IMG/VR virus record: IMGVR_UViG_3300029985_000079
Span: 1-40,410 of that record
From: a virus
Direction: 5' to 3' (one strand)
DNA: 40,410 bases
Positions within the stretch are counted from its first letter, which is position 1, and each line of letters begins with the position of its first letter. Position numbers and translations under genes: made by a program. The notes below the pieces were generated by a model. That model was not told the DNA's origin. It searched no databases and saw only the letters and a list, made by a program, of their open reading frames with translations. Shown here in pieces: positions 3,220 to 40,410 of this stretch.

Positions 3220-3222
3220 AAA

Positions 3223-25778: not shown

Positions 25779-26156
25779 ATGGATTTGTTAGAAATTATTC
25801 CGAAAGTTAATGAAAATATTATAAACGAAACTTTGATGAGAATGGGTGTAGGAGATAAGAAAAGAAAAATCTTATATCCTTCCTGTCACCTTTACAAAGA
25901 CATAGACTCTCATTATTATCTTTGTCACTTCAAAGAAATGTTTTTGTTGCGCTCTACTCGACCAAGCTTTAATAATTTTTCCGAAGATGATTTGTTGAGA
26001 AGAAACTCGGTCGCTTTACTTTTAGAAGATTGGGATATGATAGAAATATTAAATCTCCCAGAAGAAAATGATACGGTATTCATTTTTACTTTATCTAATG
26101 CTGAGAAAAAAGATTGGTTAATTCAGCCTAAATTTAATCCGAGGACATTGACATGA
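25779..26156 (+). CDS. regA: RegA-like translational repressor of early genes
   Basis: A 125-residue protein matching T4 RegA (122 aa) along its length. Diagnostic stretches are NETLMRMGVGDKKRKILYPS, then CHLY and YYLCHFKEMF, then EDDLLRRNSVALLLEDWDMI and the C-terminal KDWLIQPKF. In T4, RegA binds AU-rich initiation regions of early mRNAs and blocks ribosome loading. The gene starts directly after the tube-like gene stop and overlaps the next gene by ATGA. In T4, regA sits in the replication cluster, so this location among late tail and lysis genes is unusual. Confidence 0.92.
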   Translation: MDLLEIIPKVNENIINETLMRMGVGDKKRKILYPSCHLYKDIDSHYYLCHFKEMFLLRSTRPSFNNFSEDDLLRRNSVALLLEDWDMIEILNLPEENDTVFIFTLSNAEKKDWLIQPKFNPRTLT

Positions 26157-26701
26157 ATACAAAAATGTGGTGGGTGCTAATTGTTGTTGCTTTGCTAATA
26201 GGGTTTTTTGGAGGGAAGCAATTTTTTCAACCAAAAGAATCCAAAATTATTCAAAATGTTGTTGCAAGAGTAGATACATTATACAAAGATAGGCAGAGTT
26301 ATATTCATGATACTGTAATAGTCAAGCAGAAAGTCGTGGTCAATCATTTCGAAAAAGTTTCTGGAAATCTTGACTCAGTATTTTCCGGAAAAGATTCTGC
26401 AAAAAAAGTCACGTTGTTTGATAGTGTTTATTATTCAAAAGACACTACAAAGTTTTTAGATATTTCTCAAGACCAAGCCAAGCAAGCTATAGAAGCAAAA
26501 TACTTGATGGAAAGAGATTCCGCGCTTTTAGGAATTTGCTTAGATAATGTTAAAAATGCTGATGAGACTATTTCCGAAATGAAAACTAATGTAGATTCTT
26601 TGAAAAATGTAAGAGTTTCCGAAGAACATTTTTGGAGAGATTCTGGTATAGGTTTTGGTGTTGGGCTCGCTTTTTTGGTTGCATATATTTTTATTAAATA
26701 G
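26153..26701 (+). CDS. Spanin-like protein with two terminal membrane segments
   Basis: A 182-residue protein with an N-terminal membrane segment (WWVLIVVALLIGFF, residues 6-20) and a C-terminal one (GIGFGVGLAFLVAYIFI, about 164-181). The 140 residues between them are hydrophilic: short beta-like repeats (DTLYKDRQSYIHDTVIVKQK), then a helical part (DQAKQAIEAKYLMERDSALL). Two anchors around a periplasm-spanning region suggest a spanin or other lysis-time envelope protein. No lipobox Cys is present at the N-terminus, so it is not a classical u-spanin. The proximity of a holin-like gene at 27937 supports a lysis role, which remains inferred. Confidence 0.6.
   Translation: MNTKMWWVLIVVALLIGFFGGKQFFQPKESKIIQNVVARVDTLYKDRQSYIHDTVIVKQKVVVNHFEKVSGNLDSVFSGKDSAKKVTLFDSVYYSKDTTKFLDISQDQAKQAIEAKYLMERDSALLGICLDNVKNADETISEMKTNVDSLKNVRVSEEHFWRDSGIGFGVGLAFLVAYIFIK
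26693..26700 (+). promoter_or_regulatory. Late-type box ATTAAATA before tnpB
   Basis: ATTAAATA ends five bases before the tnpB ATG at 26706, the same spacing as other candidate leaderless boxes. It lies within the last codons of the spanin-like gene, so coding constraint may explain it. Confidence 0.3.
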
Positions 26702-26705
26702 TTAT

Positions 26706-27920
26706 ATGACCAAACGAGCTTACAAATATAGAATCTATCCAACTGAAGAACAGAAGATAATTTTATCTAAGACTTTTGGTTGTGTAAGATTTGTTTGGAA
26801 TCAAATGGTAGATATTTTTAATTCATACGATAAAGAAATTAACACTAAGCCAATTTACAAATCACCACCTGAACTAAAATTAGAATTCTTATGGATGACG
26901 GAAGTCAATGCGGGAGCACTACAACAAAAAGTAAGAGATTTTGAAAAATTCAAAACTCAATATTTTTCAAAATCTAGAAAAAAGAAAATTGGTAGACCAC
27001 AATTCAAAAAGAAATCCAACCACCAATCTTTCAGACTCCCAAATCAAAAATTCAGATTAGAACAAAATTCAATTTGGTTAGAAAAGATAGGAGACATAGA
27101 AATTCGAATAGATCGTTTGCCTAAGAAAAATTCTAAATTCGTGTCAGTAACAATTTCGAAAACTCCTTCTGGAAAGTATTTTGCATCTATCCTCGTAGAA
27201 GAAGAAGCGAGTCCTAGATTTGAACAAACTAATAAAATCGTAGGATTAGATTTAGGATTGAAAGATTTCTTGATTTTATCTAATGGAGAAAAAATTGAGA
27301 ATCCAAGATGGCTTCGCAAGAGTCAAGCGAAGCTAAGAAAGACTCAAAAGAACCCGAGTCGAAAAGTGGTGGGTTCTAGCCGTTACAAGAAAACAAGAGT
27401 GAAGGTTGCTAGAGTCCATGAAAAAGTAGCTAATCAAAGAAGTTGGTTTCATCACAATCTTTCTTTAGACCTAATCAAGAGGTTTGACTTTATAGGAATA
27501 GAATCTTTAAATGTCAAAGGAATGGTGAAAAATAGAAAACTAGCTAGAGCAATTTCAGATGCTGGTTGGAGTCAGTTCATCAATTTCTTAAAATACAAAG
27601 CAGTGTGGAATCAAAAACAAATTCAAGCAATTGATCGTTGGTTCCCTTCTTCTAAAACTTGTAATGAATGTGGTTGTATCAATGATGATTTAACATTAGA
27701 AGATAGAACTTGGGAATGCCCTCATTGCCATGCTATCCTAGACAGAGACATTAACGCCGCTAAGAACATAGAAAAATTAGCCTTACAAATAGCACAAGGA
27801 GTTGCTTGTGCTCTACGGATGCCGATTCGATGTGAGACTTGGACAACACAAGCAGTTGAAGCAGAAGCGTCTAAAAAATCAGGCAATTTGCCAGACAACT
27901 ATATACTGACAGGACATTGA
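26706..27920 (+). CDS. tnpB: TnpB RNA-guided nuclease, IS200/IS605 family (no TnpA)
   Basis: A 404-residue protein starting at the ATG that gives the typical N-terminus (KRAYKYRIYPTEEQ, then FGCVRFVWNQMVD). An upstream in-frame ATG (26655) lies inside the spanin-like gene and adds unrelated residues. The RuvC triad looks intact: D182 in VGLDLGLKDF, E266 in FIGIESLNVKGM, and the DRDINAAKN motif at 346-354. A zinc ribbon CNECG...CPHC lies at about 319-340. Known TnpB proteins cut DNA guided by an omega RNA transcribed from their own 3' end. No TnpA lies nearby, so this is a solitary TnpB, probably acting as a homing-type element or domesticated nuclease. It is wedged between a spanin-like and a holin-like gene. 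Confidence 0.92.
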   Translation: MTKRAYKYRIYPTEEQKIILSKTFGCVRFVWNQMVDIFNSYDKEINTKPIYKSPPELKLEFLWMTEVNAGALQQKVRDFEKFKTQYFSKSRKKKIGRPQFKKKSNHQSFRLPNQKFRLEQNSIWLEKIGDIEIRIDRLPKKNSKFVSVTISKTPSGKYFASILVEEEASPRFEQTNKIVGLDLGLKDFLILSNGEKIENPRWLRKSQAKLRKTQKNPSRKVVGSSRYKKTRVKVARVHEKVANQRSWFHHNLSLDLIKRFDFIGIESLNVKGMVKNRKLARAISDAGWSQFINFLKYKAVWNQKQIQAIDRWFPSSKTCNECGCINDDLTLEDRTWECPHCHAILDRDINAAKNIEKLALQIAQGVACALRMPIRCETWTTQAVEAEASKKSGNLPDNYILTGH

Positions 27921-27936
27921 CCAAAGGAGACTAAAC

Positions 27937-28209
27937 GTGTGGGAATTTACTAAAAAAGTTTTGAAATATTTCGGAAATTTTCTTCAAGATAAGAACGGAG
28001 TTTCAAGTTCTAAGAGGTTAGTAAAAGTATCAAGTTACTATGCTGCGATTTATATAGCAATTTTTTCTGTAGTCCATCATCAAGATATTACAAATAACAT
28101 GTTAATACTTCTGACTGCGCTTTGTGGCGTATCTGCTGGAACATATGCGCTGACAAATAAATTTGAATCTAAGAAAGATATGGAAGGAGACGATAAAGAT
28201 GGAAAGTGA
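27937..28209 (+). CDS. Holin-like small membrane protein
   Basis: A 90-residue protein from a GTG start with a strong ribosome site (AAAGGAGA, six bases upstream). Sequence order: amphipathic helix (WEFTKKVLKYFGNFLQD), NGVSSSKRLVKVSSYYAAIY leading into a first membrane segment, a short loop (HHQDITN), a second segment (MLILLTALCGVSAGTYALT), and a charged tail. Two membrane segments with a charged C-terminus, plus the SSKRL motif common in small phage membrane proteins, fit a class II holin. No separate endolysin is recognisable in the window. Confidence 0.6.
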   Translation: MWEFTKKVLKYFGNFLQDKNGVSSSKRLVKVSSYYAAIYIAIFSVVHHQDITNNMLILLTALCGVSAGTYALTNKFESKKDMEGDDKDGK

Positions 28210-28375
28210 AAATTTTTCTTTCGACCAGTTTGATGAAATAATTAAGAATAATCCATTTCCGGAAGATTTCGCACACATGCACAAACTTTCCGAAAAACGT
28301 GACGTAGAATCTATTGATGATAAGTTTTTTGATAATGAAGAAGATTTAGAGTCAGATGATTTAAGTTTTATCTAG
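28199..28375 (+). CDS. Small acidic protein (58 aa)
   Basis: Overlaps the end of the holin-like gene by 11 bases. The ATG at 28199 is chosen because AAGGAG lies 10 bases before it; an in-frame ATG at 28163 has no ribosome site. The protein is very acidic, especially its end (DNEEDLESDDLSF), and contains no known motif. Confidence 0.6.
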   Translation: MESENFSFDQFDEIIKNNPFPEDFAHMHKLSEKRDVESIDDKFFDNEEDLESDDLSFI

Positions 28376-28403
28376 AATTTACTATTAACCATTTTGGAGA
28401 TTT

Positions 28404-29393
28404 ATGCCGAAAATTACTAAGAAAGCTAAGGTGAAGGAAATCGAAAAGGTAGATGAAGTCAAACAATCTCCTACAGTTATCTATGTGGCAGATAGAGACT
28501 TGTTAGGAAAACTTGCTTCTACAGATTTAGTAAACATTTCGAAAAGTTTTAACGTAAAGATTGATACAAAGGGCGAAAGATTTACTATCACATCTAATGA
28601 AATAAATGATTGTCGAAAAGCGGCTATAGTTTTAGAAAAGCTTTTTGATGCATTTGATAGAAACTTCGATATTCAAGATTCTGATATAGATGAATTGATA
28701 TCTTCGCTCTTACCAAAACCTTTAGCAGGAAGCAAATACAAAGGGATTTATAAGAACCATAAAGGCGAAGATTTCAGTCCTAGAACAGAAAATCAAGAAC
28801 TAGCTATTAAAATGATTAAGAATAAAACTATTTCTGTGTTGTATGGTCATGCAGGAACTGGAAAATCAAAGCTAAGTGTTTGCATGTCACTCAAAATGCT
28901 AGATGATGGTAGATACGATAAAATTATTGTAGTCCGTCCTATGATAACTGTTGGAAATGCTATTGGATATCTTCCTGGAAATTTAGACGAGAAATATGGT
29001 GTGTATGTTTCTCCAATTGCCGAAACCTTTTTGGAAATGCTTGGCGAACGTGGATATGAGCAAAAACTAAAAGAAAATAAAATCTTATACACTCCTGTTG
29101 GTTTCGTTCGAGGAGGAAATTTCGAAAATGCTTTCATAATAATTGATGAAGCACAGAATTTATCTAAGCATGAAATTCTAACTCTTTTAACTCGTATCTG
29201 TCACAATACTAAAGTTTGTATTACTGGAGATAGAAGCCAATCTGATATAAAATCTTCAAAACCAGAAAAATCCGGATTAGAATGCGTTGTAGAACTTTTG
29301 AAAGATGTGGATGATGTTGGTATGGTAAAATTCGGCCTTCAAGATATTCAAAGGCATAAGTTAGTCGGAGAAATAATTAGGGCGTTTGAGTAA
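28404..29393 (+). CDS. phoH: PhoH-like P-loop ATPase
   Basis: A 329-residue protein. After a Lys-rich start, an N-terminal domain (about 25-115) resembles the KH-like region of PhoH proteins. The ATPase core shows RTENQELAIKMI, Walker A GHAGTGKS (148-155), VRPMITVGNAIGYLPG, and Walker B IIIDEAQN (about 247-254) followed by KVCITGDRSQSD. PhoH proteins are RNA-associated ATPases found in bacteria and often in large phages; their role in infection is unsettled. GGAG lies before the ATG. The stop overlaps the next start (TAATG). Confidence 0.92.
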   Translation: MPKITKKAKVKEIEKVDEVKQSPTVIYVADRDLLGKLASTDLVNISKSFNVKIDTKGERFTITSNEINDCRKAAIVLEKLFDAFDRNFDIQDSDIDELISSLLPKPLAGSKYKGIYKNHKGEDFSPRTENQELAIKMIKNKTISVLYGHAGTGKSKLSVCMSLKMLDDGRYDKIIVVRPMITVGNAIGYLPGNLDEKYGVYVSPIAETFLEMLGERGYEQKLKENKILYTPVGFVRGGNFENAFIIIDEAQNLSKHEILTLLTRICHNTKVCITGDRSQSDIKSSKPEKSGLECVVELLKDVDDVGMVKFGLQDIQRHKLVGEIIRAFE

Positions 29394-30034
29394 TGATTAA
29401 GATATCTTCTTTAGATGAACCAACGCAAAATTTTTTAGATTATGTGGATTCTACTCTAAAGAAGTATCGTTTTACTTTAGTTCTTTCTATGGATGATTTA
29501 ACAGTAGGAAAAAATACTGTAGGAGGAACTTTTGACGAGATTGATAAGAAATTAGAAATATCAATCAAAGATGAAGGATGGCTAGAAGTATTAGTTCATG
29601 AGTTTAATCATTTTCTACAATATATACAACAAGAACCAATTTTTCTAAAACTTTCCGAAAGTGGCTCTAACATGTCTGAAGATTTGTGGTCATGGCTCGA
29701 CCACGAAATTGAATTACCCAAAAAAAGAATTTCGGAAATTATACAATCAATTATAGATATGGAATTAGATTGTGAAAGACGTTCCGTAAAAATGATTAAA
29801 GAATTTTCTCTTCCCATAGATATAAAAGAGTATGTTTTTGTTGCATATACTTATCTAAACTTTTATAATTATGTTAAAAAGCATCGGACATGGTTCAAAC
29901 AAAGTGTGGGGCTGTCAGATATAAAAGAACTTAGAAGCATGAAAAATATACATCTTCGAGGAAAGTTCAAAAGACTTCCGAAAGGGTTTGAAGAAATTTT
30001 TCGGAAATACTCTAAAAAGTCCTTGACAAGCTAG
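29393..30034 (+). CDS. Putative zinc metallopeptidase-like protein (HExxH)
   Basis: A 213-residue protein. It carries the zinc-binding helix VHEFNHFLQ (H69, E70, H73) and a later acidic helix MELDCERRS (about 122-130) that could provide the third ligand, as in gluzincin-type folds. The rest is helical and basic towards the C-terminus (KNIHLRGKFKRLPKGFEE). No signal peptide or membrane segment is seen, so it is cytoplasmic. The substrate is unknown. The early promoter of the ligase gene lies across its last codons. Confidence 0.65.
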   Translation: MIKISSLDEPTQNFLDYVDSTLKKYRFTLVLSMDDLTVGKNTVGGTFDEIDKKLEISIKDEGWLEVLVHEFNHFLQYIQQEPIFLKLSESGSNMSEDLWSWLDHEIELPKKRISEIIQSIIDMELDCERRSVKMIKEFSLPIDIKEYVFVAYTYLNFYNYVKKHRTWFKQSVGLSDIKELRSMKNIHLRGKFKRLPKGFEEIFRKYSKKSLTS

Positions 30035-30051
30035 ATTAAATTTGTTATCTT
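30023..30051 (+). promoter_or_regulatory. Early sigma-70-type promoter (TTGACA-17-TATCTT)
   Basis: TTGACA at 30023-30028 and TATCTT at 30046-30051 with 17 bases between. The flanks CCTTGACAA and TTTGTTATCTT are shared with the promoter at 37533. It would drive the ligase, the miniprotein array and the methyltransferase. Confidence 0.85.
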
Positions 30052-30082
30052 GTTTTAGACCCCATTGAAAGGATAATTAAAA

Positions 30083-31903
30083 ATGTTACAAAAACTAGTA
30101 GAAGAAATTAAACAACTATCTCAAGAATATTATGATACGGGAACTTCGTCAGCTACTGATAAAGAATTTGACGAAAAGTTAGAACAAGTCCGGAAGCTAG
30201 ATCCTAATCATGGTATTTTAACTGAAGTCGGCCATGGTTACGTTTTGAAGGGAATTGATGAGAAGGAAAAAACTCAACATCCTATTCCAGTTGGTTCTAT
30301 TGAAATTAAGACAAAAGATATAAACGTTTTAAAAAAGTTTCTTAATGCCAATACTACACAATCTACAAAAATTGATGGAAATTCTATTTTAGCCACATAT
30401 AAAAATGGGCATCAATATAAAGTTGCGACCAGAGGAAAAGATAATATAGGAATAGACAGGACCGCGAAATTTGAGAAAAAGTTTCCGAAAACTGTTCCCG
30501 TAAAAGAAAACTTTGCTGTTCGAAGTGAGGCGGCGATTAAAAAAGTAAATTACACAATAGACAATGGATTCGATATTTCTAAATCTTCTAGGAATGCTGT
30601 AGCTGGTGCAATTTCTAGGCAAGATGATTGGGAGAATATTTTCAAATGGGTAGATGTTATTTCATATACATTTACAAATATAGATACTAAGGAAGACATA
30701 ACCGAAAAATATCCTTGGGAAACTTGGTTCAATGTAGAAAAACAAATTCCTGTAGATAATTTAATTTTTACTGATGTGAAAGCATTCAAGAAAAAATATA
30801 AAGACGATTATACATATGATGCTGACGGAGTAGTTTTCAAAACTGGCCCTGAATATCTCGCTTTCAAATTTGATGATGAAGTAGTAAATACAAAACTGCT
30901 GTCAGTCAAATGGAGCATAGGAAAAGACCAAAGATTAACTCCTGTAGCCATTCTAGAGCCGGTTCAATTAGCTGGAGCCACTATCTCTAAGGCAAGTCTA
31001 GGAAGCTATGCAAAGGCTTTAGAAAAGGATTGCTGGCCAGTTTTTGCAGACCATGTGGTAGAAATTTCTAGAGCCAATGAAATTATTCCTCATGTAGAGA
31101 GAACAATTTCGAAAAATCTTAATACAATATTTAAGCAAAGTTTTTCCGAAATTGTTCCTAAATGCCCTGTTTGTAATTCTAACGGAGAACAAAATGGAGA
31201 GCATATATTTTGTGTAAATCCTAGCTGTGAGAATTTAAACTCGTCAAGGCTTTATACATTTTCTTCATACTTTTATCCGGAAGGACTTTCCGAAAAGATT
31301 ATAGAAAAGTTTTTTGAAAGCGAAGAGATTTATACTGTATATGATTTGATAAAGTATAATAAAAAGTTTTCCGGAAACGTTTATGGACTAGGAGAAAGTC
31401 ATATAGAAAAGATTAACAAATTTTTAGAAAATATTTCCGGAACAGTTGATGTTAAGATCGTCTACAATACTTTTCTGAATAGTTGTGGTGAAAGGCTTGC
31501 TCAAAAGATTGTAGATTCTGGGTTCGATTTGATAGAGTTTTTCGAAGATGCTACAGAAATAAACAAATTGAACAATCTTTCAAATTTCAATTCAAACGTT
31601 ATTTCCGAAATGGTTGACAAAAAAGAATTGTTCTTCGAGTTCGTAAATTTAAAACAAATTAAACAGGAGAAAAAGATGTCAGTAAACGCAGGTAAATATG
31701 TAATCACTGGAGTAAGATTTCATGGAGACGATTTAGTAAAAGTTGAGGCCGCTGGTTGGTCAGAAGCAAGTTCGGTTTCTAAGAATACTCAAGTGCTCGT
31801 TGTTAAGGATCCTTCTACTACTTCTTCGAAAGCTACCAAGGCGAGAGAATTAGGAATTAAGATTCTTTCCGTAGAGGAGTTTCTGGAGTATATCTGTGCA
31901 TGA
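30083..31903 (+). CDS. NAD+-dependent DNA ligase
   Basis: A 606-residue LigA-type ligase. Adenylation domain: KIDG (K96 is the AMP-accepting Lys), VRSE, SSRNAVAGAISR and YDADGVVFK, with LLSVKW as the last nucleotidyltransferase motif. The OB-fold has LTPVAILEPVQLAGATISKA. A four-Cys zinc finger follows (CPVC...CVNPSC). Helix-hairpin-helix segments and a C-terminal BRCT domain (about 532-606) complete the order. It is shorter than bacterial LigA (about 670) and lacks an obvious full Ia domain with the NMN-binding tyrosines. The phage probably uses it in replication and repair. It is read from the early promoter at 30023. An internal start precedes the BRCT domain (see 31665). Confidence 0.92.
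   Translation: MLQKLVEEIKQLSQEYYDTGTSSATDKEFDEKLEQVRKLDPNHGILTEVGHGYVLKGIDEKEKTQHPIPVGSIEIKTKDINVLKKFLNANTTQSTKIDGNSILATYKNGHQYKVATRGKDNIGIDRTAKFEKKFPKTVPVKENFAVRSEAAIKKVNYTIDNGFDISKSSRNAVAGAISRQDDWENIFKWVDVISYTFTNIDTKEDITEKYPWETWFNVEKQIPVDNLIFTDVKAFKKKYKDDYTYDADGVVFKTGPEYLAFKFDDEVVNTKLLSVKWSIGKDQRLTPVAILEPVQLAGATISKASLGSYAKALEKDCWPVFADHVVEISRANEIIPHVERTISKNLNTIFKQSFSEIVPKCPVCNSNGEQNGEHIFCVNPSCENLNSSRLYTFSSYFYPEGLSEKIIEKFFESEEIYTVYDLIKYNKKFSGNVYGLGESHIEKINKFLENISGTVDVKIVYNTFLNSCGERLAQKIVDSGFDLIEFFEDATEINKLNNLSNFNSNVISEMVDKKELFFEFVNLKQIKQEKKMSVNAGKYVITGVRFHGDDLVKVEAAGWSEASSVSKNTQVLVVKDPSTTSSKATKARELGIKILSVEEFLEYICA
31665..31678 (+). promoter_or_regulatory. Internal ribosome site and ATG before the ligase BRCT domain
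   Basis: AGGAG at 31665-31669 followed by six bases and an in-frame ATG at 31676. Initiation here would make a separate 75-residue BRCT-only polypeptide ending with the ligase stop at 31903. The boundary matches the domain junction closely. Confidence 0.4.
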
Positions 31904-32063
31904 TTTTCGAGATTTCTTTTTAATAAATCCTAAAACCTTAAACTGGTGCTCTGGAAGAATTCCCTGTTTTGAAAAATGGTTTTTAGACTATCATTTATCA
32001 AATTGTATAATGACAGAAAGACCACCGACAAATTGGAAAGCTTTTTATGATAAAATATTCTAA
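31896..32063 (+). CDS. Array miniprotein A (55 aa)
   Basis: GTG start overlapping the ligase stop by eight bases, with GGAG about 10 bases upstream. The sequence begins HDFRDFFLINPKTLNW, and the core FEKWFLDYHLSN aligns with the DFKKxFLxxDxxN core of the downstream genes, ending NWKAFYDKIF. It is the first of ten consecutive overlapping small genes. No function is recognised. GTG and partial core make it somewhat less certain than members C to H. Confidence 0.5.
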   Translation: MHDFRDFFLINPKTLNWCSGRIPCFEKWFLDYHLSNCIMTERPPTNWKAFYDKIF

Positions 32064-32217
32064 TATTATAATTTGTGATAAAAAATTTGGATATGATTTA
32101 GGATTTGGTTCTGGTGCAGATTTTAAAAAATCTTTCTTAAAATATGAAACGAAAAATTTATTTTTGAAGAAAAATTATACGATTACTTTCTGGAAAGCTT
32201 TTTATGAAAACCTTTGA
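32047..32217 (+). CDS. Array miniprotein B (56 aa)
   Basis: Starts 17 bases before the stop of member A. The core is DFKKSFLKYETKN, followed by TFWKAFYENL, which matches the WKAFYDKIF end of member A. This shared ending suggests A and B are sister copies. The N-terminal part (YSNIIICDKKFGYDLGFG) is aromatic and Gly-rich. No known domain. Confidence 0.55.
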   Translation: MIKYSNIIICDKKFGYDLGFGSGADFKKSFLKYETKNLFLKKNYTITFWKAFYENL

Positions 32218-32404
32218 AACATTTTATAGATGGGATTTGGAAAATGGTTTCGAAACTTGGAATATAAAACTTTTACTAGACTTTAAGAAAATCTTTTTAG
32301 AATACGATGTTAAAAATTTTAATATAAAAAGTTATGTAGGTTTTAATAGAAAAAGTTATGTAGGATTTTTTGAAGAAATGTTAAAGGATTTCCATGATTC
32401 ATGA
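32204..32404 (+). CDS. Array miniprotein C (66 aa) with internal tandem duplication
   Basis: Overlaps member B by 14 bases, with GGAAAG upstream. It shows the full family plan: MKTFETFYRWD, then DFKKIFLEYDVKN, then a C-terminal FFEEMLKDF. A 24-bp tandem duplication inside the gene gives the repeated residues FNIKSYVG and FNRKSYVG. Its N-terminus is nearly identical to that of member H (MKTYETFVYWD), showing recent duplication within the array. Confidence 0.7.
   Translation: MKTFETFYRWDLENGFETWNIKLLLDFKKIFLEYDVKNFNIKSYVGFNRKSYVGFFEEMLKDFHDS
32317..32364 (+). repeat. 24-bp in-frame tandem duplication in member C
   Basis: Two adjacent 24-base units (32317-32340 and 32341-32364) differ at one base. 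Eight codons are duplicated and the reading frame is kept, lengthening the loop after the family core. Confidence 0.9.
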
Positions 32405-32591
32405 AAAATTTTCTGGATTTTATTTAGCATGTTCTTATGTCATTTTTACTTACGGATATGATACAAAAGCTCTTATTATGGGCCAAGATGAATTAGACTT
32501 TTTAGAAACATTTTTAGATAATGATTGTCAAAATAATTTTATAAAAGAAGTTTTCGGAAAGCCTTGGAACAAAATTTATGAACAATTTTGA
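32394..32591 (+). CDS. Array miniprotein D (65 aa)
   Basis: Overlaps member C by 11 bases with AAAGGA before the ATG. The N-terminal segment is longer and more hydrophobic (FYLACSYVIFTYGYD). The core is DFLETFLDNDCQNNFI, followed by KPWNKIYEQF. The match to the family core is clear. No membrane segment is long enough to be convincing. Confidence 0.65.
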   Translation: MIHEKFSGFYLACSYVIFTYGYDTKALIMGQDELDFLETFLDNDCQNNFIKEVFGKPWNKIYEQF

Positions 32592-32796
32592 ATATTTTAT
32601 GAAGATAGATTTAGAAAAACTTTGCAGAAATCCTCCTTATCATGCTGGATGTTTTGATTATGATTTCCCTGTAGACTTTGAGAAATATTTTCTGGAATCT
32701 GACAATAGAAATGACTTTATTATAAATTATTTTGTTCCGAGTTTTTATAAAAGAGTTTATAAAAGAGTTTATGAAAATATTAGAAAGAGTTTATGA
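32578..32796 (+). CDS. Array miniprotein E (72 aa) with 12-bp tandem repeat
   Basis: Overlaps member D by 14 bases. It begins NNFEYFMKIDLEK and has the core DFEKYFLESDNRNDFI, then a C-terminal helix with repeated KRVY KRVY from a perfect 12-bp duplication. It is the longest member, the extra length coming from this repeat and from a Cys/His-containing insert (YHAGCFDYD). Confidence 0.7.
   Translation: MNNFEYFMKIDLEKLCRNPPYHAGCFDYDFPVDFEKYFLESDNRNDFIINYFVPSFYKRVYKRVYENIRKSL
32746..32769 (+). repeat. 12-bp in-frame tandem duplication in member E
   Basis: Two perfect adjacent copies of a 12-base unit (TATAAAAGAGTT) duplicate four codons. A degenerate third copy (TATGAAAATATT) follows. Confidence 0.9.
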
Positions 32797-32993
32797 GAAA
32801 ACTTAAGAAAATTCAAAGAGTTAATGTTTATCGCATCATCCATTTCAATTGGCGGGATATTTTTAATTATACTTCTAAATTAGATTTTAAGGATTATTTT
32901 ATAAACAAAGATGTTTCAAATGATTTTTTTGTTGCAGGACATCATGCGAGTCTTACTGAATTCGAAAATATTTATAAAGAACTTTTCAAATGA
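32793..32993 (+). CDS. Array miniprotein F (66 aa)
   Basis: Coupled to member E by an ATGA overlap. It has a basic N-terminus (RKLKKIQRVNVYRI), an FNWRDIFNY segment, the core DFKDYFINKDVSNDFF and the ending EFENIYKELF. All family positions are present. Confidence 0.7.
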   Translation: MRKLKKIQRVNVYRIIHFNWRDIFNYTSKLDFKDYFINKDVSNDFFVAGHHASLTEFENIYKELFK

Positions 32994-33166
32994 TATACAA
33001 TACTAAAGGAATAAATGGCTGGAATATTTTTGAAAATGTGCATGTTGGTTGGGTTTGGTTAGATTTTGAAAAAGTTTTTATAGATTACGATGGTTATAAT
33101 TTTTATTTCAAATCTTTGGATTACTATTTTAAGAAAAGTTTGACGAAAGGTTGGTTGAATTTTTGA
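32990..33166 (+). CDS. Array miniprotein G (58 aa)
   Basis: Coupled to member F by ATGA. It carries GWNIFENVHVGWVW, then the core DFEKVFIDYDGYNFYF, and ends KKSLTKGWLNF. It is rich in Trp and Phe. The stop shares one base with the start of member H (TGATG). Confidence 0.65.
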   Translation: MIYNTKGINGWNIFENVHVGWVWLDFEKVFIDYDGYNFYFKSLDYYFKKSLTKGWLNF

Positions 33167-33351
33167 TGAAAACGTATGAAACTTTTGTTTATTGGGATGC
33201 AAAAAATCATTATGCGTTTTATAATAGCGATCCTAGTTCTTGTGCCGACCTTAAGAAATTTTATTTGAATAGAGATTTCTTAAACAGAATTATGAGAACT
33301 ATTAAAAACGAATATGAGTTTGGAAAGATTATTAAAGAAAGTTTAAGATGA
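33166..33351 (+). CDS. Array miniprotein H (61 aa)
   Basis: The ATG at 33166 is chosen over an in-frame ATG at 33151 because it gives the MKTYETFVYWD start seen in member C and a one-base overlap with member G. The core is DLKKFYLNRDFLN, the ending FGKIIKESL. A family member with a diverged core. Confidence 0.65.
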   Translation: MKTYETFVYWDAKNHYAFYNSDPSSCADLKKFYLNRDFLNRIMRTIKNEYEFGKIIKESLR

Positions 33352-33524
33352 TTCTATTGTTTGATAAAATTGAAAATAAATTTTTTGATATGAATCCAGG
33401 ATTAAATAGTTGTCGAAATATAGAGTCTGCATTTATTAATGATTGGTTTTATATATTCGCTGATAGTAATTTTAATATGATTTTAAGAAAACCTTCTAGG
33501 GAACTTTACAGGAAACTTTTATGA
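33348..33524 (+). CDS. Array miniprotein I (58 aa, diverged)
   Basis: Coupled to member H by ATGA. It has the N-terminal pattern LLFDKIENKFFDMN and a weak core IESAFINDWFYIF, ending SRELYRKLL. It is the most diverged of the full-length copies. Its status as a family member rests on length, position and the aromatic spacing. Confidence 0.5.
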   Translation: MILLFDKIENKFFDMNPGLNSCRNIESAFINDWFYIFADSNFNMILRKPSRELYRKLL

Positions 33525-33628
33525 ATTGGAATAGATCATATTTTTGGAATATTAAAAAAGATATCCATCATGCAACTATACAGGAGTATTTTATGAAATT
33601 ACTAAATACTAATAAAAGGAACAGATGA
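33521..33628 (+). CDS. Array miniprotein J (35 aa, truncated copy)
   Basis: ATGA-coupled to member I and to the methyltransferase start at 33625. It begins NWNRSYFWNIKKDIHHATIQ, then EYFMKLLN, like a copy lacking the second half. An ATG within it (33593, with AGGAG upstream) is a possible remnant start. It may be decaying or serve only as a translational link. Confidence 0.4.
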   Translation: MNWNRSYFWNIKKDIHHATIQEYFMKLLNTNKRNR

Positions 33629-34551
33629 TAAAAGAAAAATCAGAAAGAAACAAAACAATAGATTTTAATGAAAAAGATTTAGAAACATATTCTAATAAAT
33701 TGAATAAAATAACGAGCAACGAACCTGTCGAAAATGTTTTAAATAAAATTTTTAATAATGATTTATTTGAAGCGTTAGATTATTTTCCAGACAATTTCGT
33801 AGACCTTTTGATATTAGATCCGCCCTACAATTTATCTAAAAATTTTGGAGAAATAAATTTTAAAAAAACAACTAACGACAAATACTTAGAATATTTGGAT
33901 TCCTGGTTTAGTAAAATTATAAGATTGTTAAAACCAACAGCAACAATATATCTTTGTGGTGATTGGAAATGTTCTGTTCAGCAATATACAGTTTTAGAAA
34001 AATATGCGATAATAAGAAATAGGATTGTCTGGCAAAGAGAAAAGGGAAGAGGTGCTTCAAAAAATTGGAAAAATAGTTCCGAAGACATCCTATTTGCTAC
34101 AATGACTGACGAATATTATTTTGATGTAGATTCTATTAAAACCAAAAAGAAAGTAATTGCTCCGTATAAACAAGACGGCGTTGCAAAAGATTGGGTAGAA
34201 GACGGATCTGGAAAATTTAGAATGACGTTTCCTTCGAATTTTTTGGATGATATTACGGTTCCTTATTGGTCCATGCCGGAAAATACAATTCATCCTACCC
34301 AAAAGCCAGAAAAGCTAATAGCAAAACTAATTTTGGCAAGCTGCCCGGAAAATGGTGTAGTGTTTGATGTTTTTATGGGATCTGGAACAACTGCCGTCGT
34401 GTCTAAAAAATTGGGAAGAAATTTTTCTGGAATAGAGATTGACGAAAAGTATTGTGTGATTTCGGAAAAGCGTTTAGAAAAAGTCGAAGAAAACAAAAAT
34501 ATACAAGGTTACGTCAATGGTGTATTTTTAGAGAGAAATCAGAAGTCTTAA
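33625..34551 (+). CDS. DNA methyltransferase, beta class (N6-adenine type likely)
   Basis: A 308-residue protein. Motif IV DPPYN is at 65-69, then a target-recognition region. HPTQKPEKL (motif X region) and motif I DVFMGSGTT (248-256) come near the C-terminus. The order IV-TRD-X-I defines the beta class, which includes CcrM- and HinfI-like enzymes. DPPY favours adenine N6 as the target. It is the last gene of the chain that begins at the ligase promoter. A PD-(D/E)XK nuclease gene follows 40 bases later, so the pair is probably a type II restriction-modification system; a stand-alone anti-restriction methylase is the alternative. Confidence 0.9.
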   Translation: MIKEKSERNKTIDFNEKDLETYSNKLNKITSNEPVENVLNKIFNNDLFEALDYFPDNFVDLLILDPPYNLSKNFGEINFKKTTNDKYLEYLDSWFSKIIRLLKPTATIYLCGDWKCSVQQYTVLEKYAIIRNRIVWQREKGRGASKNWKNSSEDILFATMTDEYYFDVDSIKTKKKVIAPYKQDGVAKDWVEDGSGKFRMTFPSNFLDDITVPYWSMPENTIHPTQKPEKLIAKLILASCPENGVVFDVFMGSGTTAVVSKKLGRNFSGIEIDEKYCVISEKRLEKVEENKNIQGYVNGVFLERNQKS

Positions 34552-34563
34552 TTTTTTTTTGCT

Positions 34564-34571
34564 ATTAAATA
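34564..34571 (+). promoter_or_regulatory. Late-type box ATTAAATA before the nuclease gene
   Basis: ATTAAATA in the 40-base gap between methyltransferase and nuclease genes, 20 bases before the ATG at 34592. It has one substitution relative to TATAAATA. An A+T tract with ten T lies just upstream (34551-34560), without a hairpin before it. Confidence 0.4.
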
Positions 34572-34591
34572 TCACAACAGAAAGAATATAA

Positions 34592-35236
34592 ATGTCTAAA
34601 TTATATGACGCATCAGTTATAAAAACGATAGAAGAAAATACGAAAACTATTCTAAACGATAACAATGAAATAAAGGAAAAGTTGTCTAAAAATGATGTTC
34701 GTTCTATTGGAAAACTTTTTGAAGAAATTATTAAAAACAATCTTTTAGAAATATTTCCTACAGATTTAGTAAAAGAGACTAGATTTAAGAATAGTAGGAA
34801 ATCAATGGCAGACTTCACTGTTGTCGATTGTGATAATTTTATTCATATTATAGATGTAAAGTCTCACAGATTAGATACGAAATTTAATATGCCTAATCTG
34901 ACTTCCGTAGAAAAATTAAAAGAATTGTATAAAACTAATAATAATTATTTTTCTATTTTACTGGTTAAATATACCATAGATAAAAATATATTTGTTGTAA
35001 GTGATGTTATTTTTACTCCTGTAGAAAACATAGAATTTGATTGTTTAACTATAGGCGCGTTAGGAAAAGGCCAGATTCAATTAAGAAATTCTAATAGAGT
35101 TTGTTTAAATTTTCAAGTTACTCGCCAGCAATTTTTGAAATCCTTATATACAAAATTGATGGGTTATTATGATAAACAAATTAACAAATCTCAGAAATCA
35201 AAAATAGAATGTAAAAATTTTCTAAAGACGTTTTAG
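34592..35236 (+). CDS. Putative type II restriction endonuclease, PD-(D/E)XK fold
   Basis: A 214-residue protein. A helix IGKLFEEIIKNNLLEIF precedes the nuclease core. ADFTV with D74 and HIIDVKSH with D88 and K90 form the D...DxK active site. It continues FNMPNLTSVEKLKELY, a pattern I associate with type II restriction enzymes that read DVK-T/S then NMPNL. A strand follows (NYFSILLVKYTID), then FQVTRQQFLKSLYTKL. Placement directly after a methyltransferase strongly supports restriction function. The cut site cannot be read from the sequence. Confidence 0.7.
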   Translation: MSKLYDASVIKTIEENTKTILNDNNEIKEKLSKNDVRSIGKLFEEIIKNNLLEIFPTDLVKETRFKNSRKSMADFTVVDCDNFIHIIDVKSHRLDTKFNMPNLTSVEKLKELYKTNNNYFSILLVKYTIDKNIFVVSDVIFTPVENIEFDCLTIGALGKGQIQLRNSNRVCLNFQVTRQQFLKSLYTKLMGYYDKQINKSQKSKIECKNFLKTF

Positions 35237-35262
35237 GAAATAGTTTTTAAAATCTTTGTGAT

Positions 35263-35270
35263 TATAAATA
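35263..35270 (+). promoter_or_regulatory. T4-type late promoter box TATAAATA
   Basis: Exact TATAAATA followed by ATTCT, identical over 13 bases to the box at 9056. It lies 18 bases before the ATG at 35289, with AAGAGG as ribosome site. Confidence 0.65.
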
Positions 35271-35288
35271 ATTCTAAAAGAGGCTAAC

Positions 35289-35975
35289 ATGCACAAAGAA
35301 CAATTATTTAAGCTCAATTCAATGTTGGGTGGAACTAGTTTAGATTTTGATGGAACTGAAATCCAAGAGGTCCAAGAAACCGAAGAGCAAGAAATACATC
35401 TTTCAATAGAAGAAGATACCCCCGTTCAAAGCTTTTTAGAAAATTTTTCGGAAACATTTGATAGGTTTAATGCGATTGAACTAAACGAATCCGAAATCTC
35501 CGTCGTGACCGAACTAGACATTGCAGACGATTTGGCAAATATTCAGGAAGCCCTTGACAATATCCGTGAGAAAATTTTGCTTAAGGAAGATATCGGAAGT
35601 CTTTCTCAAATCGGTGCGATAGCTATTCCAGGTTTAAGTATTTTAGGAGCCGCACTTATTGGAACTTTGGTAAGAGCTAAAGCTAACGGGGAAGCAACTT
35701 TACCAAAACCTTTAGCAAACCTTCTGCATGACGTTTACCAATTTATTAGCAATGGGAAAACTAAAGAACGTAGAGAAATCATTCGCGCATCCCTTTTGAG
35801 AAGCAACCCAAAGATTGATAAAAAAGATGTTGAATGGCTGATCGATATTGCTATGAAGAAAGGTGATGAGATTAAGAAACATCCTACCATCTCTCTTTCA
35901 AAAGATTCTAGAGTCAATGGAAAATACGAAACAGAGTTTGCAAAGATTAACAAGAAGAGATTTGGTCTAGAATAA
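35289..35975 (+). CDS. Unknown late protein with one membrane segment (228 aa)
   Basis: The first 105 residues are acidic and helical (EIQEVQETEEQEIHLSIEED, then LDIADDLANIQEALDNI). One hydrophobic segment follows at about 113-130 (IGAIAIPGLSILGAALIG). The C-terminal part is basic and helical (KTKERREIIRASLLRSN, then DKKDVEWLIDIAMKKG). The exact TATAAATA box ahead implies late expression, so a virion or membrane role is plausible, but no family is recognised. Confidence 0.65.
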   Translation: MHKEQLFKLNSMLGGTSLDFDGTEIQEVQETEEQEIHLSIEEDTPVQSFLENFSETFDRFNAIELNESEISVVTELDIADDLANIQEALDNIREKILLKEDIGSLSQIGAIAIPGLSILGAALIGTLVRAKANGEATLPKPLANLLHDVYQFISNGKTKERREIIRASLLRSNPKIDKKDVEWLIDIAMKKGDEIKKHPTISLSKDSRVNGKYETEFAKINKKRFGLE

Positions 35976-35976
35976 A

Positions 35977-36093
35977 ATGCAATCTCTTCTAACCGAATTG
36001 AAAGATTTGTTAGCTGAGATAAAATGTGGAAAAGGAACTCCGGAAACTATTGAGAAACTTTTAGAGATTCTTAGGCAACTAGAATCTCTTTAA
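35977..36093 (+). CDS. Tiny helical protein (38 aa)
   Basis: An ATG one base after the preceding stop opens a 38-residue amphipathic helix-turn-helix peptide: MQSLLTELKDLLAEIKCG, then TPETIEKLLEILRQLESL. It lies fully between two late-type genes and keeps a heptad leucine pattern, which favours a real coding sequence. Confidence 0.5.
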   Translation: MQSLLTELKDLLAEIKCGKGTPETIEKLLEILRQLESL

Positions 36094-36095
36094 TG

Positions 36096-36103
36096 TATAA
36101 ATA
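36096..36103 (+). promoter_or_regulatory. T4-type late promoter box TATAAATA
   Basis: Exact TATAAATA ending five bases before the ATG at 36109. If T4 spacing holds, transcription would begin at about that ATG. Confidence 0.55.
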
Positions 36104-36108
36104 ATCTT

Positions 36109-36639
36109 ATGGATATTAAAACACCAATTCGGAAAATTATTCTTTGGGCTAGATTTGACAGGATAATCAATATGACTCCATCGGAAATTCGTATGACTAG
36201 AGAGTCTGACGAAGCAAAAAATGTAAGCCAAACCCCGGCGGATGCTCAAAAAGTGGGAGCAAACGTAAAGGCGGGTAAAGAAGAAAGTAAAAAATTGGAA
36301 GAGATATTAAAAAAGGTTTCTAAATATCGTGGCCAATATAAAAAAGTTCCCAATTTGTCTGATTCTGAATGGTCTACAATTTCGACTGCTGTCAGATTCA
36401 TTTCTAGGGCGCGAAGTAATATAGGTCCTTTAGAAGATGAACATGGTAAATGGACCAGTAAGAAAATTTGTCTTCGGATTTGGGGAAGGAACGAAACAAA
36501 CGCATCTTCCTTTCCGAATAAGAACAGCGTCAAGGCGGAAGTAAGTTCTAAAGTCCATGCAGAAAGAGAACGTCAGAGAGAAAAAGAAAAGAAAGAATCG
36601 AAAAAACTTAACGAAGACTTTTTCAAAAAGTATCTCTAA
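36109..36639 (+). CDS. Unknown late, Lys-rich protein (176 or 155 aa)
   Basis: No family recognised. The frame starts at the ATG five bases after a TATAAATA box; a second ATG at 36172 has AGGA upstream and would give 155 residues beginning MTPSEIRMTRESDEA. Features are SQTPADAQKVGANVKAGKEE, a central YRGQYKKVPNLSDSEWSTI, then RFISRARSNIGPLEDEHG followed by ICLRIWGRNE, and a basic coiled end (ERERQREKEKKESKK). The tail and the Arg/Lys content suggest nucleic-acid or capsid contact. The two starts cannot be separated from sequence alone. Confidence 0.6.
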   Translation: MDIKTPIRKIILWARFDRIINMTPSEIRMTRESDEAKNVSQTPADAQKVGANVKAGKEESKKLEEILKKVSKYRGQYKKVPNLSDSEWSTISTAVRFISRARSNIGPLEDEHGKWTSKKICLRIWGRNETNASSFPNKNSVKAEVSSKVHAERERQREKEKKESKKLNEDFFKKYL

Positions 36640-37876: not shown

Positions 37877-37963
37877 ATGAATATATCAAATGAGCATGTT
37901 TTTGAATTGGTAAAAGAAGAAATTTTAAAAGAATATAAACTAAATGGAAAGGGTATTTTATGA
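37877..37963 (+). CDS. Short leader-like peptide (28 aa)
   Basis: AAAGG precedes an ATG giving a 28-residue helical peptide (NISNEHVFELVKEEILKEYK), whose stop overlaps the next ATG by ATGA. It may mainly couple translation; coding status is moderate. Confidence 0.4.
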   Translation: MNISNEHVFELVKEEILKEYKLNGKGIL

Positions 37964-38130
37964 ATTTTTTGAAATATCAAATGTTGTTTTTTCTAATTTA
38001 TGTTTGCGGAATGTTGGACGAAATTTTTTGGTCTGGAAATAATAAAATTTGGTCATTTGTTATAAAGTTTGTGGCATTTATTATTGCAACAGAACTAGCA
38101 ATTTACATCTCATCAAAGGAACAAAAATGA
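37960..38130 (+). CDS. Small membrane protein (56 aa)
   Basis: Overlaps both neighbours by ATGA. Two hydrophobic segments: YQMLFFLIYVCGML (about 6-19) and IWSFVIKFVAFIIATELAIY (about 31-50). No family recognised. It is followed by another small membrane protein, so the two may act together in the host inner membrane. Confidence 0.55.
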   Translation: MNFLKYQMLFFLIYVCGMLDEIFWSGNNKIWSFVIKFVAFIIATELAIYISSKEQK

Positions 38131-38390
38131 TCTTACAAACAATTAAAAATTATGTTTTAGGGATTTTAGACAGACTAGTAAATCCAGAAAATTATAATGA
38201 ACGATTAGTAAACTTCTATAGTTATTTTCAGATAGGTTTTGCAAATGCTATATTCTTGCCTTTGATATTGCTTTGGTTCGCATTTTGTGGGATTGTTACT
38301 ATAAACTTTCTGAATTTATTTGGGATGTGTATTTTAATGATTCCTGTCGGTGGTGTTATAGAATTTATTTCAAGGAGATTTAAAATATGA
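38127..38390 (+). CDS. Small membrane protein (87 aa)
   Basis: The ATG at 38127 has AAAGGAA upstream and overlaps the preceding stop; an earlier in-frame ATG (38049) lies inside that gene. Two membrane segments are visible, AIFLPLILLWFAFCGIVTI (about 41-59) and FGMCILMIPVGGVIEFI (about 65-81), before a basic end (SRRFKI). Function unknown. Confidence 0.6.
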   Translation: MILQTIKNYVLGILDRLVNPENYNERLVNFYSYFQIGFANAIFLPLILLWFAFCGIVTINFLNLFGMCILMIPVGGVIEFISRRFKI

Positions 38391-38635
38391 GCAAAACATA
38401 TACTATAGAAAAAAATATAGATACTTATGTAGACATCGAAATAGATTTAGATGATGTTTTAGGATTTATTTCCGAAATGTCTTTAGAAGATTTACAGAAA
38501 GTTAAAGACGCTGTTTTGCAAAATTGTTCTGAATTTGATTGGGAAGATAATATAAACATAAATGCTCCGAACCTAATCGCCAAGATGGAGTTTGAAGAGT
38601 TTTTAGAAAGCTTTAAGAAAAAATGGCGAATCTAG
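38387..38635 (+). CDS. Small acidic protein (82 aa)
   Basis: ATGA overlap with the membrane gene. It is acidic, with IDTYVDIEIDLDDVLGFI, then SLEDLQKVKDAVLQN, and a C-terminal FEEFLESFKKKWRI. The first 60 residues look like a compact helix-rich fold. No family recognised. Confidence 0.6.
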   Translation: MSKTYTIEKNIDTYVDIEIDLDDVLGFISEMSLEDLQKVKDAVLQNCSEFDWEDNININAPNLIAKMEFEEFLESFKKKWRI

Positions 38636-38826
38636 ATGACGTGCATGTTTTTGCATATTGGTACTTTCTAAATCATTCCTGTCCGATAATTTTAACATGG
38701 TTGCCATTAGTTTCTTATAAATTTATTGCGTTCGACGTAAATAACAATCCTACGAAGTTTCAATGGATCGGAAAAGATTTTGATAAATATATAGTAACGA
38801 GGAAATATTATGAAAGAAATTTGTAA
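38623..38826 (+). CDS. Small aromatic-rich protein (67 aa)
   Basis: Overlaps the preceding gene by 13 bases. Its N-terminal part is aromatic (VHVFAYWYFLNHSCPIILTW), and its end is GKDFDKYIVTRKYY. The DFDKY segment recalls the DFKKxF core of the miniprotein array, but the match is too short to be certain. No membrane anchor is clear. Confidence 0.5.
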   Translation: MANLDDVHVFAYWYFLNHSCPIILTWLPLVSYKFIAFDVNNNPTKFQWIGKDFDKYIVTRKYYERNL

Positions 38827-39010
38827 ATGTTTTTGCCATCAATCTCCTCTGTATCACCATCAAGGGAACTGTTGCGAAAATACAGGAAAGATTTATCTAG
38901 ATTCTTTAGGAAATGTTATAGAAAATCTTTACAAAAAAATTTCTATAGAGACTGCGAAAAAGATTTGCCCGTGCTGCGGTGGGACTGGTATAGTACATGA
39001 GAAAAATTGA
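38810..39010 (+). CDS. Small zinc-binding-like protein (66 aa)
   Basis: Overlaps its neighbours by 17 and 14 bases, with GAGGAAA before the ATG. Cys and His cluster at both ends: CKCFCHQ and HHQGNCC near the start, and CPCCGGTG near the C-terminus, the last resembling a DnaJ-type zinc knuckle (CxxCxGTG). It probably folds around one or two zinc ions and binds protein or nucleic acid. Confidence 0.65.
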   Translation: MKEICKCFCHQSPLYHHQGNCCENTGKIYLDSLGNVIENLYKKISIETAKKICPCCGGTGIVHEKN

Positions 39011-39248
39011 GTTTCTTTATTATATGCCTAAACAAAAAGGATATGCAGAAACTATTGCGTGTTATTTTCAAAATGTTTCTGAAGATGTTTCTGAAGATCG
39101 TAGGAAACTTTTCGTAGGGGATAGAAGGAATTTAAGTTCAAAAATTTTAGATGACTATTGGAATAATGCGATATTTAAATATATAAAAAACGAAGCAACT
39201 TTTAATGATGTAAAATATTTTAGAAAATGTTTTTTGGAGGTTTTATGA
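38997..39248 (+). CDS. Small unknown protein (83 aa) with 12-bp tandem repeat
   Basis: Overlaps the zinc protein by 14 bases. It starts RKIEFLYYMPKQKGY, has VSEDVSED from a perfect 12-bp duplication, and ends NDVKYFRKCFLEVL. The DVKYFRKCFLE end loosely resembles the miniprotein family core. No function recognised. Confidence 0.55.
   Translation: MRKIEFLYYMPKQKGYAETIACYFQNVSEDVSEDRRKLFVGDRRNLSSKILDDYWNNAIFKYIKNEATFNDVKYFRKCFLEVL
39075..39098 (+). repeat. 12-bp in-frame tandem duplication
   Basis: Two perfect adjacent copies of GTTTCTGAAGAT duplicate the codons for VSED within the 83-residue gene. Confidence 0.9.
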
Positions 39249-39747: not shown

Positions 39748-40249
39748 TAAAGAAGGTTGCTCTAAGGCTAAATATTTTTTCGTAGCATTTCAAGGACTAG
39801 CTTATCAAAAGATTCCTAAAGAAATGTTAGACCAGCTTCCTGATGCCGATGTGCGCGAACAGATGGGGATTAAAGAAATCAATGGAAAGTTAATGGCTTC
39901 CGGAATGATTTCTAGTAACATTTGTTTAAGAGTAGAGACTGGATTATTTGTTCCATCTTTTATAGAAAATTATATCAAGATGTCTAGCAATGTGAATGAC
40001 GTTAAGATAAGTTTTGTGAAAGAGCTTTCCGAAGAAGAGTATAAAGAAGATGCAAAGATTGCTAAGATGCTTTCTAAAAAACCAGAAGACCAAGTTGTTA
40101 CTCATGATGTTCAGTCAGAAATAGATGATTTGATTGGGAGGACAGAACAAGGAAATCTTAGAATTATTGTAGACCCAAATTCCGAAAAGCCTAAGAAAGA
40201 ATTTGATGGTTTGTTTGAAGCAGATCCTGATTGGAATACGGATGATTAA
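39737..40249 (+). CDS. Unknown early protein (170 aa)
   Basis: AAGGGAGG precedes the ATG. The N-terminal half looks folded (KAKYFFVAFQGLAYQKIP, then ICLRVETGLFVPSFIENYIK). The second half is charged and helical (LSEEEYKEDAKIAKMLSKKP), ending in an acidic tail (FEADPDWNTDD). An N-terminal Cys pair (CDKEGC) is present. No family recognised. Confidence 0.65.
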   Translation: MSCDKEGCSKAKYFFVAFQGLAYQKIPKEMLDQLPDADVREQMGIKEINGKLMASGMISSNICLRVETGLFVPSFIENYIKMSSNVNDVKISFVKELSEEEYKEDAKIAKMLSKKPEDQVVTHDVQSEIDDLIGRTEQGNLRIIVDPNSEKPKKEFDGLFEADPDWNTDD

Positions 40250-40410
40250 CTATGGTTTATGTTGCATTAGAATCACTAGAGATGTTTGTGATATTCCTAT
40301 ATATCCAGTTGCAGTAGATTTTAAAGAATATTTCCTATGGGATTATTTCGAAAAGAATAGAATCGTTAAGATAGACCTTTTAGAAAATGTTATGGAAAGA
40401 ATTCTACAAA
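40242..40410 (+). CDS. Miniprotein-family member (3' partial)
   Basis: The ATG at 40242 overlaps the preceding gene by eight bases and the frame stays open to the window end (56 residues visible). It contains AVDFKEYFLWDYFEKNRI, matching the DFKKxFLxxDxxN core of the array at 31896-33628, and ends DLLENVMERILQ, like the terminal helix of those proteins. It shows the family is spread to a second locus, about 7 kb away. Confidence 0.6.
   Translation, partial: MINYGLCCIRITRDVCDIPIYPVAVDFKEYFLWDYFEKNRIVKIDLLENVMERILQ

Follow-up and report, generated by a model that had tools for sequence, protein, structure and literature searches.

Ten overlapping miniprotein genes, eight of them from one family, in a T4-like phage genome

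Homogeneous polyimmunity loci, with tandem genes for SUKH, Imm6, Imm11 and other proteins, have been read as inhibitor libraries, and in the passages of PMC3482391 cited here they consist of closely spaced, same-orientation and often distantly related paralogues of one type. Several small paralogues of one anti-defence family can also lie together in one viral genome, as is the case for AcrID1, with 26/35 homologues in close proximity in four rudiviruses (excerpt of PMC11065993), while recombination is documented to raise gene copy number in the amplification of T4 dmd-tifA (excerpt of PMC9391042) and reported to do so at other T4-like anti-defence loci (excerpts of PMC9391042 and PMC13096335). 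Here we describe a locus which shares features with all of these: an array of ten consecutive overlapping genes, A to J, at positions 31896–33628 of the IMG/VR virus record IMGVR_UViG_3300029985_000079, of which the entire 40,410 bases were analysed (hereafter the window). The array and its eight-member protein family are real and undescribed in the collections searched, while clusters of one-family small inhibitors have precedents.

The array has the layout of a polyimmunity locus, with tandem same-strand small paralogues, short spacing and no toxin gene in between, but the loci described in those passages of PMC3482391 are bacterial and tied to polymorphic toxins, whereas the array is in a phage and its genes overlap. 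Unlike the polyimmunity loci, its members matched no immunity superfamily in Pfam or NCBIfam. The AcrID1 clusters belong to viruses of archaeal hosts and are, in the excerpted text of PMC11065993, mostly single small genes sharing an early regulatory sequence, in contrast to the overlapping run found here. When 11 members were compared with Pfam up to an expectation (E) value of 10, only CLAMP and Ig_NOMO were returned (E 0.07–0.1), with the presence of an AcrID1 model in the library left unchecked; the Pfam name of AcrID1 is DUF1374. The dmd-tifA-type cases, as presented in the excerpts of PMC9391042 and PMC13096335, are laboratory amplifications of one segment, whereas the array copies have pairwise identities of only 13–31% within A–H. 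Runs of short, closely spaced open reading frames (ORFs) are also common in ordinary phage small-gene clusters, but the array is longer (ten genes) and has eight of its ten genes from one family. Only analogues were found when the open-access literature was searched for published phage arrays of small paralogues, and PMC4909266 was rejected as a precedent, as the part of it available describes paralogous helix-turn-helix genes and not such an array.

The gene chain and its protein family

The ten ORFs (35–72 codons) all lie on the plus strand and tile the interval from a DNA ligase gene to a DNA methyltransferase gene. From A/B to I/J the overlaps are 17, 14, 11, 14, 4, 4, 1, 4 and 4 nucleotides (nt), and the ends of the chain also overlap their neighbours, gene A by 8 nt with the ligase stop and gene J by 4 nt with the methyltransferase start. 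The longest chain of overlapping ORFs (at least 35 codons) was ten in the real region versus 0–3 in 300 dinucleotide-preserving shuffles of it, and zero on its reverse strand. These coordinates and shuffles bear out the ten consecutive small genes with 1–17 nt overlaps proposed in a first-pass annotation, made from the sequence alone. The longest chain in 168 other loci (1.38 Mb), which are not a random sample (nearly all viral, mostly fetched by a DNA pattern, some overlapping), contained six genes under a slightly looser rule and by eye did not represent one family; chains of five or six were present in 11/336 strand scans of these loci with gaps of up to 15 nt allowed, and in the six such chains that were printed the genes looked mutually unrelated by eye. 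In codon usage, the own frame was the best of the three forward frames in 7/10 genes, tied in I and not best in A and J, although this is a weak test as reverse frames frequently score equally high; the G+C content of the array region is 25%.

Each of the proteins A–H was retrieved by a hidden Markov model (HMM) of the other seven, with leave-one-out scores of 15.2–37.9 bits that were unmatched by any of 200 shuffles of the target or any of 254 other ORFs of the window. The members are gene A (31896..32063, 55 amino acids (aa), GTG start, 15.2 bits), B (32047..32217, 56 aa, 22.7 bits), C (32204..32404, 66 aa, 37.9 bits), D (32394..32591, 65 aa, 23.8 bits), E (32578..32796, 72 aa, 22.1 bits), F (32793..32993, 66 aa, 19.7 bits), G (32990..33166, 58 aa, 19.1 bits) and H (33166..33351, 61 aa, 20.5 bits), where for H the ATG at 33166 was preferred over the TTG at 33151. 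Genes I (33348..33524, 58 aa) and J (33521..33628, 35 aa) are part of the chain and were not retrieved by the HMM of A–H, scoring 1.3 and 2.9 bits, which 95/200 and 59/200 of their own shuffles equalled or bettered. Judged by these profiles, A–H are one paralogous family of eight members, while membership of I and J is unsupported. The earlier proposal that the overlapping genes include diverging paralogues, at least seven of them sharing a common plan, is therefore upheld with one member more. Its statement that five of the genes are absent from or mis-started by a simple long-ORF search was about right, with A, B, G, I and J shorter than 60 aa and H assigned to a TTG start that lies 15 nt before its ATG.

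When pairs were compared against 300 shuffles, the highest scores were for C–H (z 8.7), A–B (8.4), E–F (7.5), C–G (7.2) and B–E (6.9), while other pairs such as A–H and E–H gave no pairwise signal. Conservation is best in DFKKxFLxxDxxN at the D, F, K, F, L, D and N, which are each present in six to eight of the eight members. At the DNA level there are 20-nt repeats (95% identical) at the A/B and B/C junctions, a 24-nt tandem duplication in gene C (32317–32364) and 12-nt tandem units close to the 3' end of gene E (32744–32794), which together fit growth of the array by duplication. The isoelectric points (pI) of A–H range from 4.45 to 9.52, with only D (pI 4.45) strongly acidic, and net charge ranges from −5.4 to +4.5 around the common core, as would be expected for binders with different partners. 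Strong acidity is the defining feature of DNA-mimic anti-restriction proteins, and a DNA-mimic set was rejected since A–H are not uniformly acidic.

In the collections searched, no relative of A–H was detected outside this phage lineage, making the family an apparent orphan at the sensitivity of these searches, all of which a short and diverged family can escape. There was no significant match in PHROGs (best E 0.052 and 0.063) or Pfam (best E 0.073), no match in NCBIfam or in PADLOC (B, C and E submitted), and the best match among PDB sequences had E 0.87; tblastn with the four members B, C, E and H gave nothing below E 3 in phage records. The profile of phrog_15356, a weak match of B, finds nothing in the window, and that family was discarded. 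Viral contigs were searched with DNA patterns of the family core and N-terminus. A looser core pattern gave at least 119 stretches, among them the second strain described below (L135); 79 of the 80 records listed were searched with the family profile (the 80th being contig G001, also described below), as were two of the remaining 39, L113 and L118. A stricter core pattern gave a complete set of 44 stretches, with all 42 non-own records profile-searched, and a further pattern gave four stretches, with two non-own records profile-searched. None of the 117 non-own records contained a full match to the family, and matches with E ≤0.05 in 10/117 were rejected as chance, all being partial and of 12–14 bits. 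Two N-terminal peptide patterns (for C and H only) gave 29 stretches in genome_contigs, none a relative. Prokaryote genomes gave matches in 0/3, 0/398 and 0/392, the latter two sets being the phyla of two centre genomes (total 790, with two of the three singly tested genomes counted again as centres), an empty answer which proves little. An earlier family profile matches G000, G001 and G002, all three of which supplied its rows. The methyltransferase query in viral contigs also gave L006, L007 and L008; the family profile finds nothing at E ≤1 in the whole L007 record, while L006 is hardly a test, since its DNA extends only about 240 bases upstream of the methyltransferase gene. Within the libraries searched (PHROGs, Pfam, NCBIfam, PDB sequences, phage records and viral contigs), the description of the family as undescribed in the first-pass annotation holds.

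Strain comparison and expression signals

Searches of viral contigs with the ligase, methyltransferase, gene E, PhoH and the 39737–40249 gene identified only two relatives of the phage. Contig G001 (67,680 bases) carries an identical array (100% over 1901 nt), while contig G002 (40,293 bases) is a second strain, in which two stretches close to the array share 97.6% identity with the window. Non-array genes matched in 21/22 cases with 71–100% nucleotide identity (18/21 over 88%); gene 11715 was dropped as it has no match in G002, 293 bases of G002 are N, and only the longest aligned piece of each gene was used (e.g. 520/870 codons of the wedge gene). G002 ends within gene C. It carries A, B and the first 52 codons of C, and the overlaps equal those in the window: 8 nt for ligase/A, 17 nt for A/B and 14 nt for B/C.

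Gene A has 70% nucleotide identity between the strains, with a ratio of nonsynonymous to synonymous substitution rates (dN/dS) of about 0.33 and one whole-codon length difference that leaves the frame intact, while genes B and C are 96% and 97% identical. Divergence is patchy over the ligase, high in A (62–63% in the last 120 nt) and falls at approximately the A/B junction, a pattern which points to allele replacement by recombination. In the interval 30083–32053 the ligase is 82% and gene A 70% identical between strains, versus 97.6% just upstream, and B and C downstream are also closer. Amino-acid change in B and C is fast, with nine nonsynonymous and one synonymous changes in B+C, versus 23.2 and 112.8 in eleven conserved genes of more than 95% identity (Fisher p 4e-6) and 597.5 and 1069.5 in all 21 matched non-array genes (p 7e-4). 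With an assumed neutral share of 0.77, the probability of at least 9/10 nonsynonymous changes is 0.29, so that relaxed and positive selection are indistinguishable for B+C. The suggestion that the set is rapidly diversifying is thus only partly borne out, as B and C have far more nonsynonymous change than the conserved genes, but at a ratio which fits neutral drift equally well, and with gene A constrained. The gene at 26153–26701, with eight nonsynonymous and two synonymous changes between strains, is as unusual as B and C, and the array is therefore not unique in its nonsynonymous excess.

From ligase/A through J/methyltransferase, 7/11 junctions have −4, −1 or −8 spacing, and these are the spacings enriched in overlapping gene pairs according to the available part of a review (PMC12548453). 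Overlaps with such spacings suggest translational coupling, and from its spacing the array is putatively coupled. Shine-Dalgarno pairing before the array starts has a mean of −3.5 kcal/mol, versus −1.4 kcal/mol at random positions and −4.5 kcal/mol for 26 other genes (array versus other genes, p 0.24), and 4/10 array starts are at or below −4 kcal/mol versus 12% of random positions. Within 27900–36200, the frequency of promoter patterns did not exceed that in shuffles, and terminator patterns were absent.

Possible functions of the array

We tentatively favour, short of regarding it as probable, a reading of the array as a series of small binders that arose by tandem duplication, are coupled in translation and have different partners, which would most likely be host-defence components. 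One ancestral gene of about 60 codons would have been duplicated repeatedly in tandem in a T4-like phage, and its copies would be translated together from a single message, each start lying on or just before the preceding stop. The copies would have retained most of the core DFKKxFLxxDxxN while diverging elsewhere, and may now act as small binding proteins that each block their own variant of a host target. Host-defence components are the most plausible targets, and the array would then be the phage counterpart of a homogeneous polyimmunity locus. This reading is preferred because of the family itself, the chain beyond chance expectation, the overlaps kept in G002, the junction spacings and Shine-Dalgarno signals, the spread of charge, the low identity between copies, the B+C ratio and the precedents. 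The putative role in inhibition of host defences, which the first-pass annotation had offered as an example, is inferred from the resemblance to tandem arrays that are known to encode small inhibitors. More doubtful is the fuller version of a phage poly-inhibitor locus, in which eight copies or more, diverged from one another but of one unknown miniprotein fold, coupled and possibly with a second array at ORF K (see below), would each neutralise a different variant of a defence component. Should the members inhibit different targets, this one operon could serve as a ready panel for finding host factors that the phage must block; it would also illustrate the assembly of a panel of this type through duplication in a phage, and show that annotation which drops or mis-starts genes of fewer than 60 codons can conceal such arrays.

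Several results weigh against this reading. Longer overlaps lower coupling according to the same part of PMC12548453, and 4/9 overlaps within A–J (17, 14, 11 and 14 nt) exceed the favoured spacings. According to a title in the reference list of that review, it is common for coupled pairs to encode the subunits of a single complex. Gene A is, on its dN/dS of about 0.33 between the two strains, under purifying selection, and the B+C ratio is based on ten differences and is not above the neutral expectation. No member matches a known inhibitor family in the libraries searched (with B, C and E for PADLOC). AlphaFold models of B and C had predicted local distance difference test (pLDDT) scores of 55 and 54 and were too poor for use; the poor model of C suggests two short strands and three helices, and in a Foldseek search against the PDB it gave no match at E ≤0.001.

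The eight paralogues could instead be subunits of one hetero-oligomer (e.g. a ring or shell) with the overlaps equalising their amounts, an unlikely alternative which would nevertheless accommodate the continuous overlaps along A–J, the frequent subunit relationship of coupled pairs indicated by that title in PMC12548453, and a divergence of the copies into distinct interfaces, and which would represent an unusual complex of eight paralogues of about 60 residues. It fits poorly with the position of the array next to ligase and restriction-modification genes and away from tail and baseplate genes, with the wide variation of the members in net charge and length, and with the absence from B and C of the constraint that these two strains show in their conserved genes. 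Of similarly low probability is a leftover of gene-dosage amplification, in which copies of a once useful gene are drifting under weak selection without separate functions: recombination-based amplification of phage genes is documented for T4 dmd-tifA (excerpt of PMC9391042). The change in B+C is compatible with neutral drift, and I and J appear decayed or unrelated, but all ten frames are open, A–H retain most of the core, and gene A has kept its frame through 30% nucleotide divergence at a dN/dS of about 0.33. Phage genomes also usually lose unselected DNA, which argues against such a leftover.

That J directly overlaps the methyltransferase gene, with the HincII-like nuclease gene next to it, would be in line with accessory proteins of the restriction-modification pair, serving specificity, control or protection of phage DNA. 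We consider this quite improbable, as Type II systems of this kind are not known to require eight accessory proteins, the family profile found no match (E ≤1) in the record of the methyltransferase relative L007, and the non-uniform acidity of the family speaks against a DNA-mimic set. It is more improbable still that the array represents one split repeat protein, either a fused chain made by ribosomal frameshifting or the remains of one long gene; while adjoining units do overlap and occupy different frames, every unit has its own start codon, several starts have ribosome-binding signals (the 4/10 given above), and the first three junction overlaps, counted from ligase/A, are identical in G002. 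The least probable explanation, which we regard as very remote, is an artefact of non-coding AT-rich repeats that are open by chance. The weak codon-usage test (own frame best in 7/10, reverse frames often equal) and the 25% G+C content would allow for this, but a chain of ten is opposed to at most three in 300 shuffles and none on the reverse strand, the family signal is at the protein level, and the one-codon length difference in gene A of G002 preserves the frame.

Neighbouring genes, candidate further copies and the source phage

The upstream neighbour of the array is an NAD-dependent DNA ligase gene (30083..31903, plus strand; PF03120, PF01653 and BRCT), and in G002 a 202-aa ORF (L004 5378–5986), absent from the window, lies between the ligase and the counterpart of the window gene at 29393–30034. 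Downstream follow, on the same strand, the DNA methyltransferase gene (33625..34551; PF01555 at E 1.1e-42, phrog_67) and a gene for a putative HincII-like restriction endonuclease (34592..35236; PF09226 at E 6.4e-4, below the Pfam gathering score), which together (33625–35236) possibly form a complete phage-carried restriction-modification pair. The pair proposed in the first-pass annotation is hence clear for the methyltransferase but not for the nuclease, where the match is below the cut-off.

A candidate further member of the family is ORF K (40242..40410, plus strand), which starts on the stop of the preceding gene and is cut off by the contig end. It contains VDFKEYFL (core DFKEYFL) and scored 10.8 bits with the family HMM, equalled or bettered by 2/2000 shuffles. 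When the window, G001 and almost the whole of G002 were searched in six frames, it was the best forward match outside A–H with 9.1 bits, although one reversed decoy scored slightly higher (9.8 bits). On this evidence ORF K could be the first gene of a second array. G001 breaks off at the same place as the window after the start of ORF K, and no continuation was present among the viral contigs found. Separately, seven small ORFs which are not of the A–H family form another overlapping chain at 37960–39481 of the window.

The window encodes an uncultivated, divergent contractile-tail phage, described here as T4-like. An 870-aa protein is similar over parts of its length to the T4-type baseplate wedge proteins of Synechococcus phages (16 records, covering 15–23% of the query), the tail-tube protein matches phrog_45, and domain searches identified PhoH together with the NAD-dependent DNA ligase. 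No RNA families or transfer RNA genes were found in the window. A TnpB-type gene with IS605 OrfB/Cas12f1-like domains (26689–27899) gave eight matches (six in Methanobrevibacter and two others), which do not name the host as they are partial and only 30–72% identical over parts of the query. This gene is within a stretch absent from G002, where the flanks are joined directly (L004 approximately 3220–3224), and the TnpB stretch therefore looks like an insertion in the window strain.

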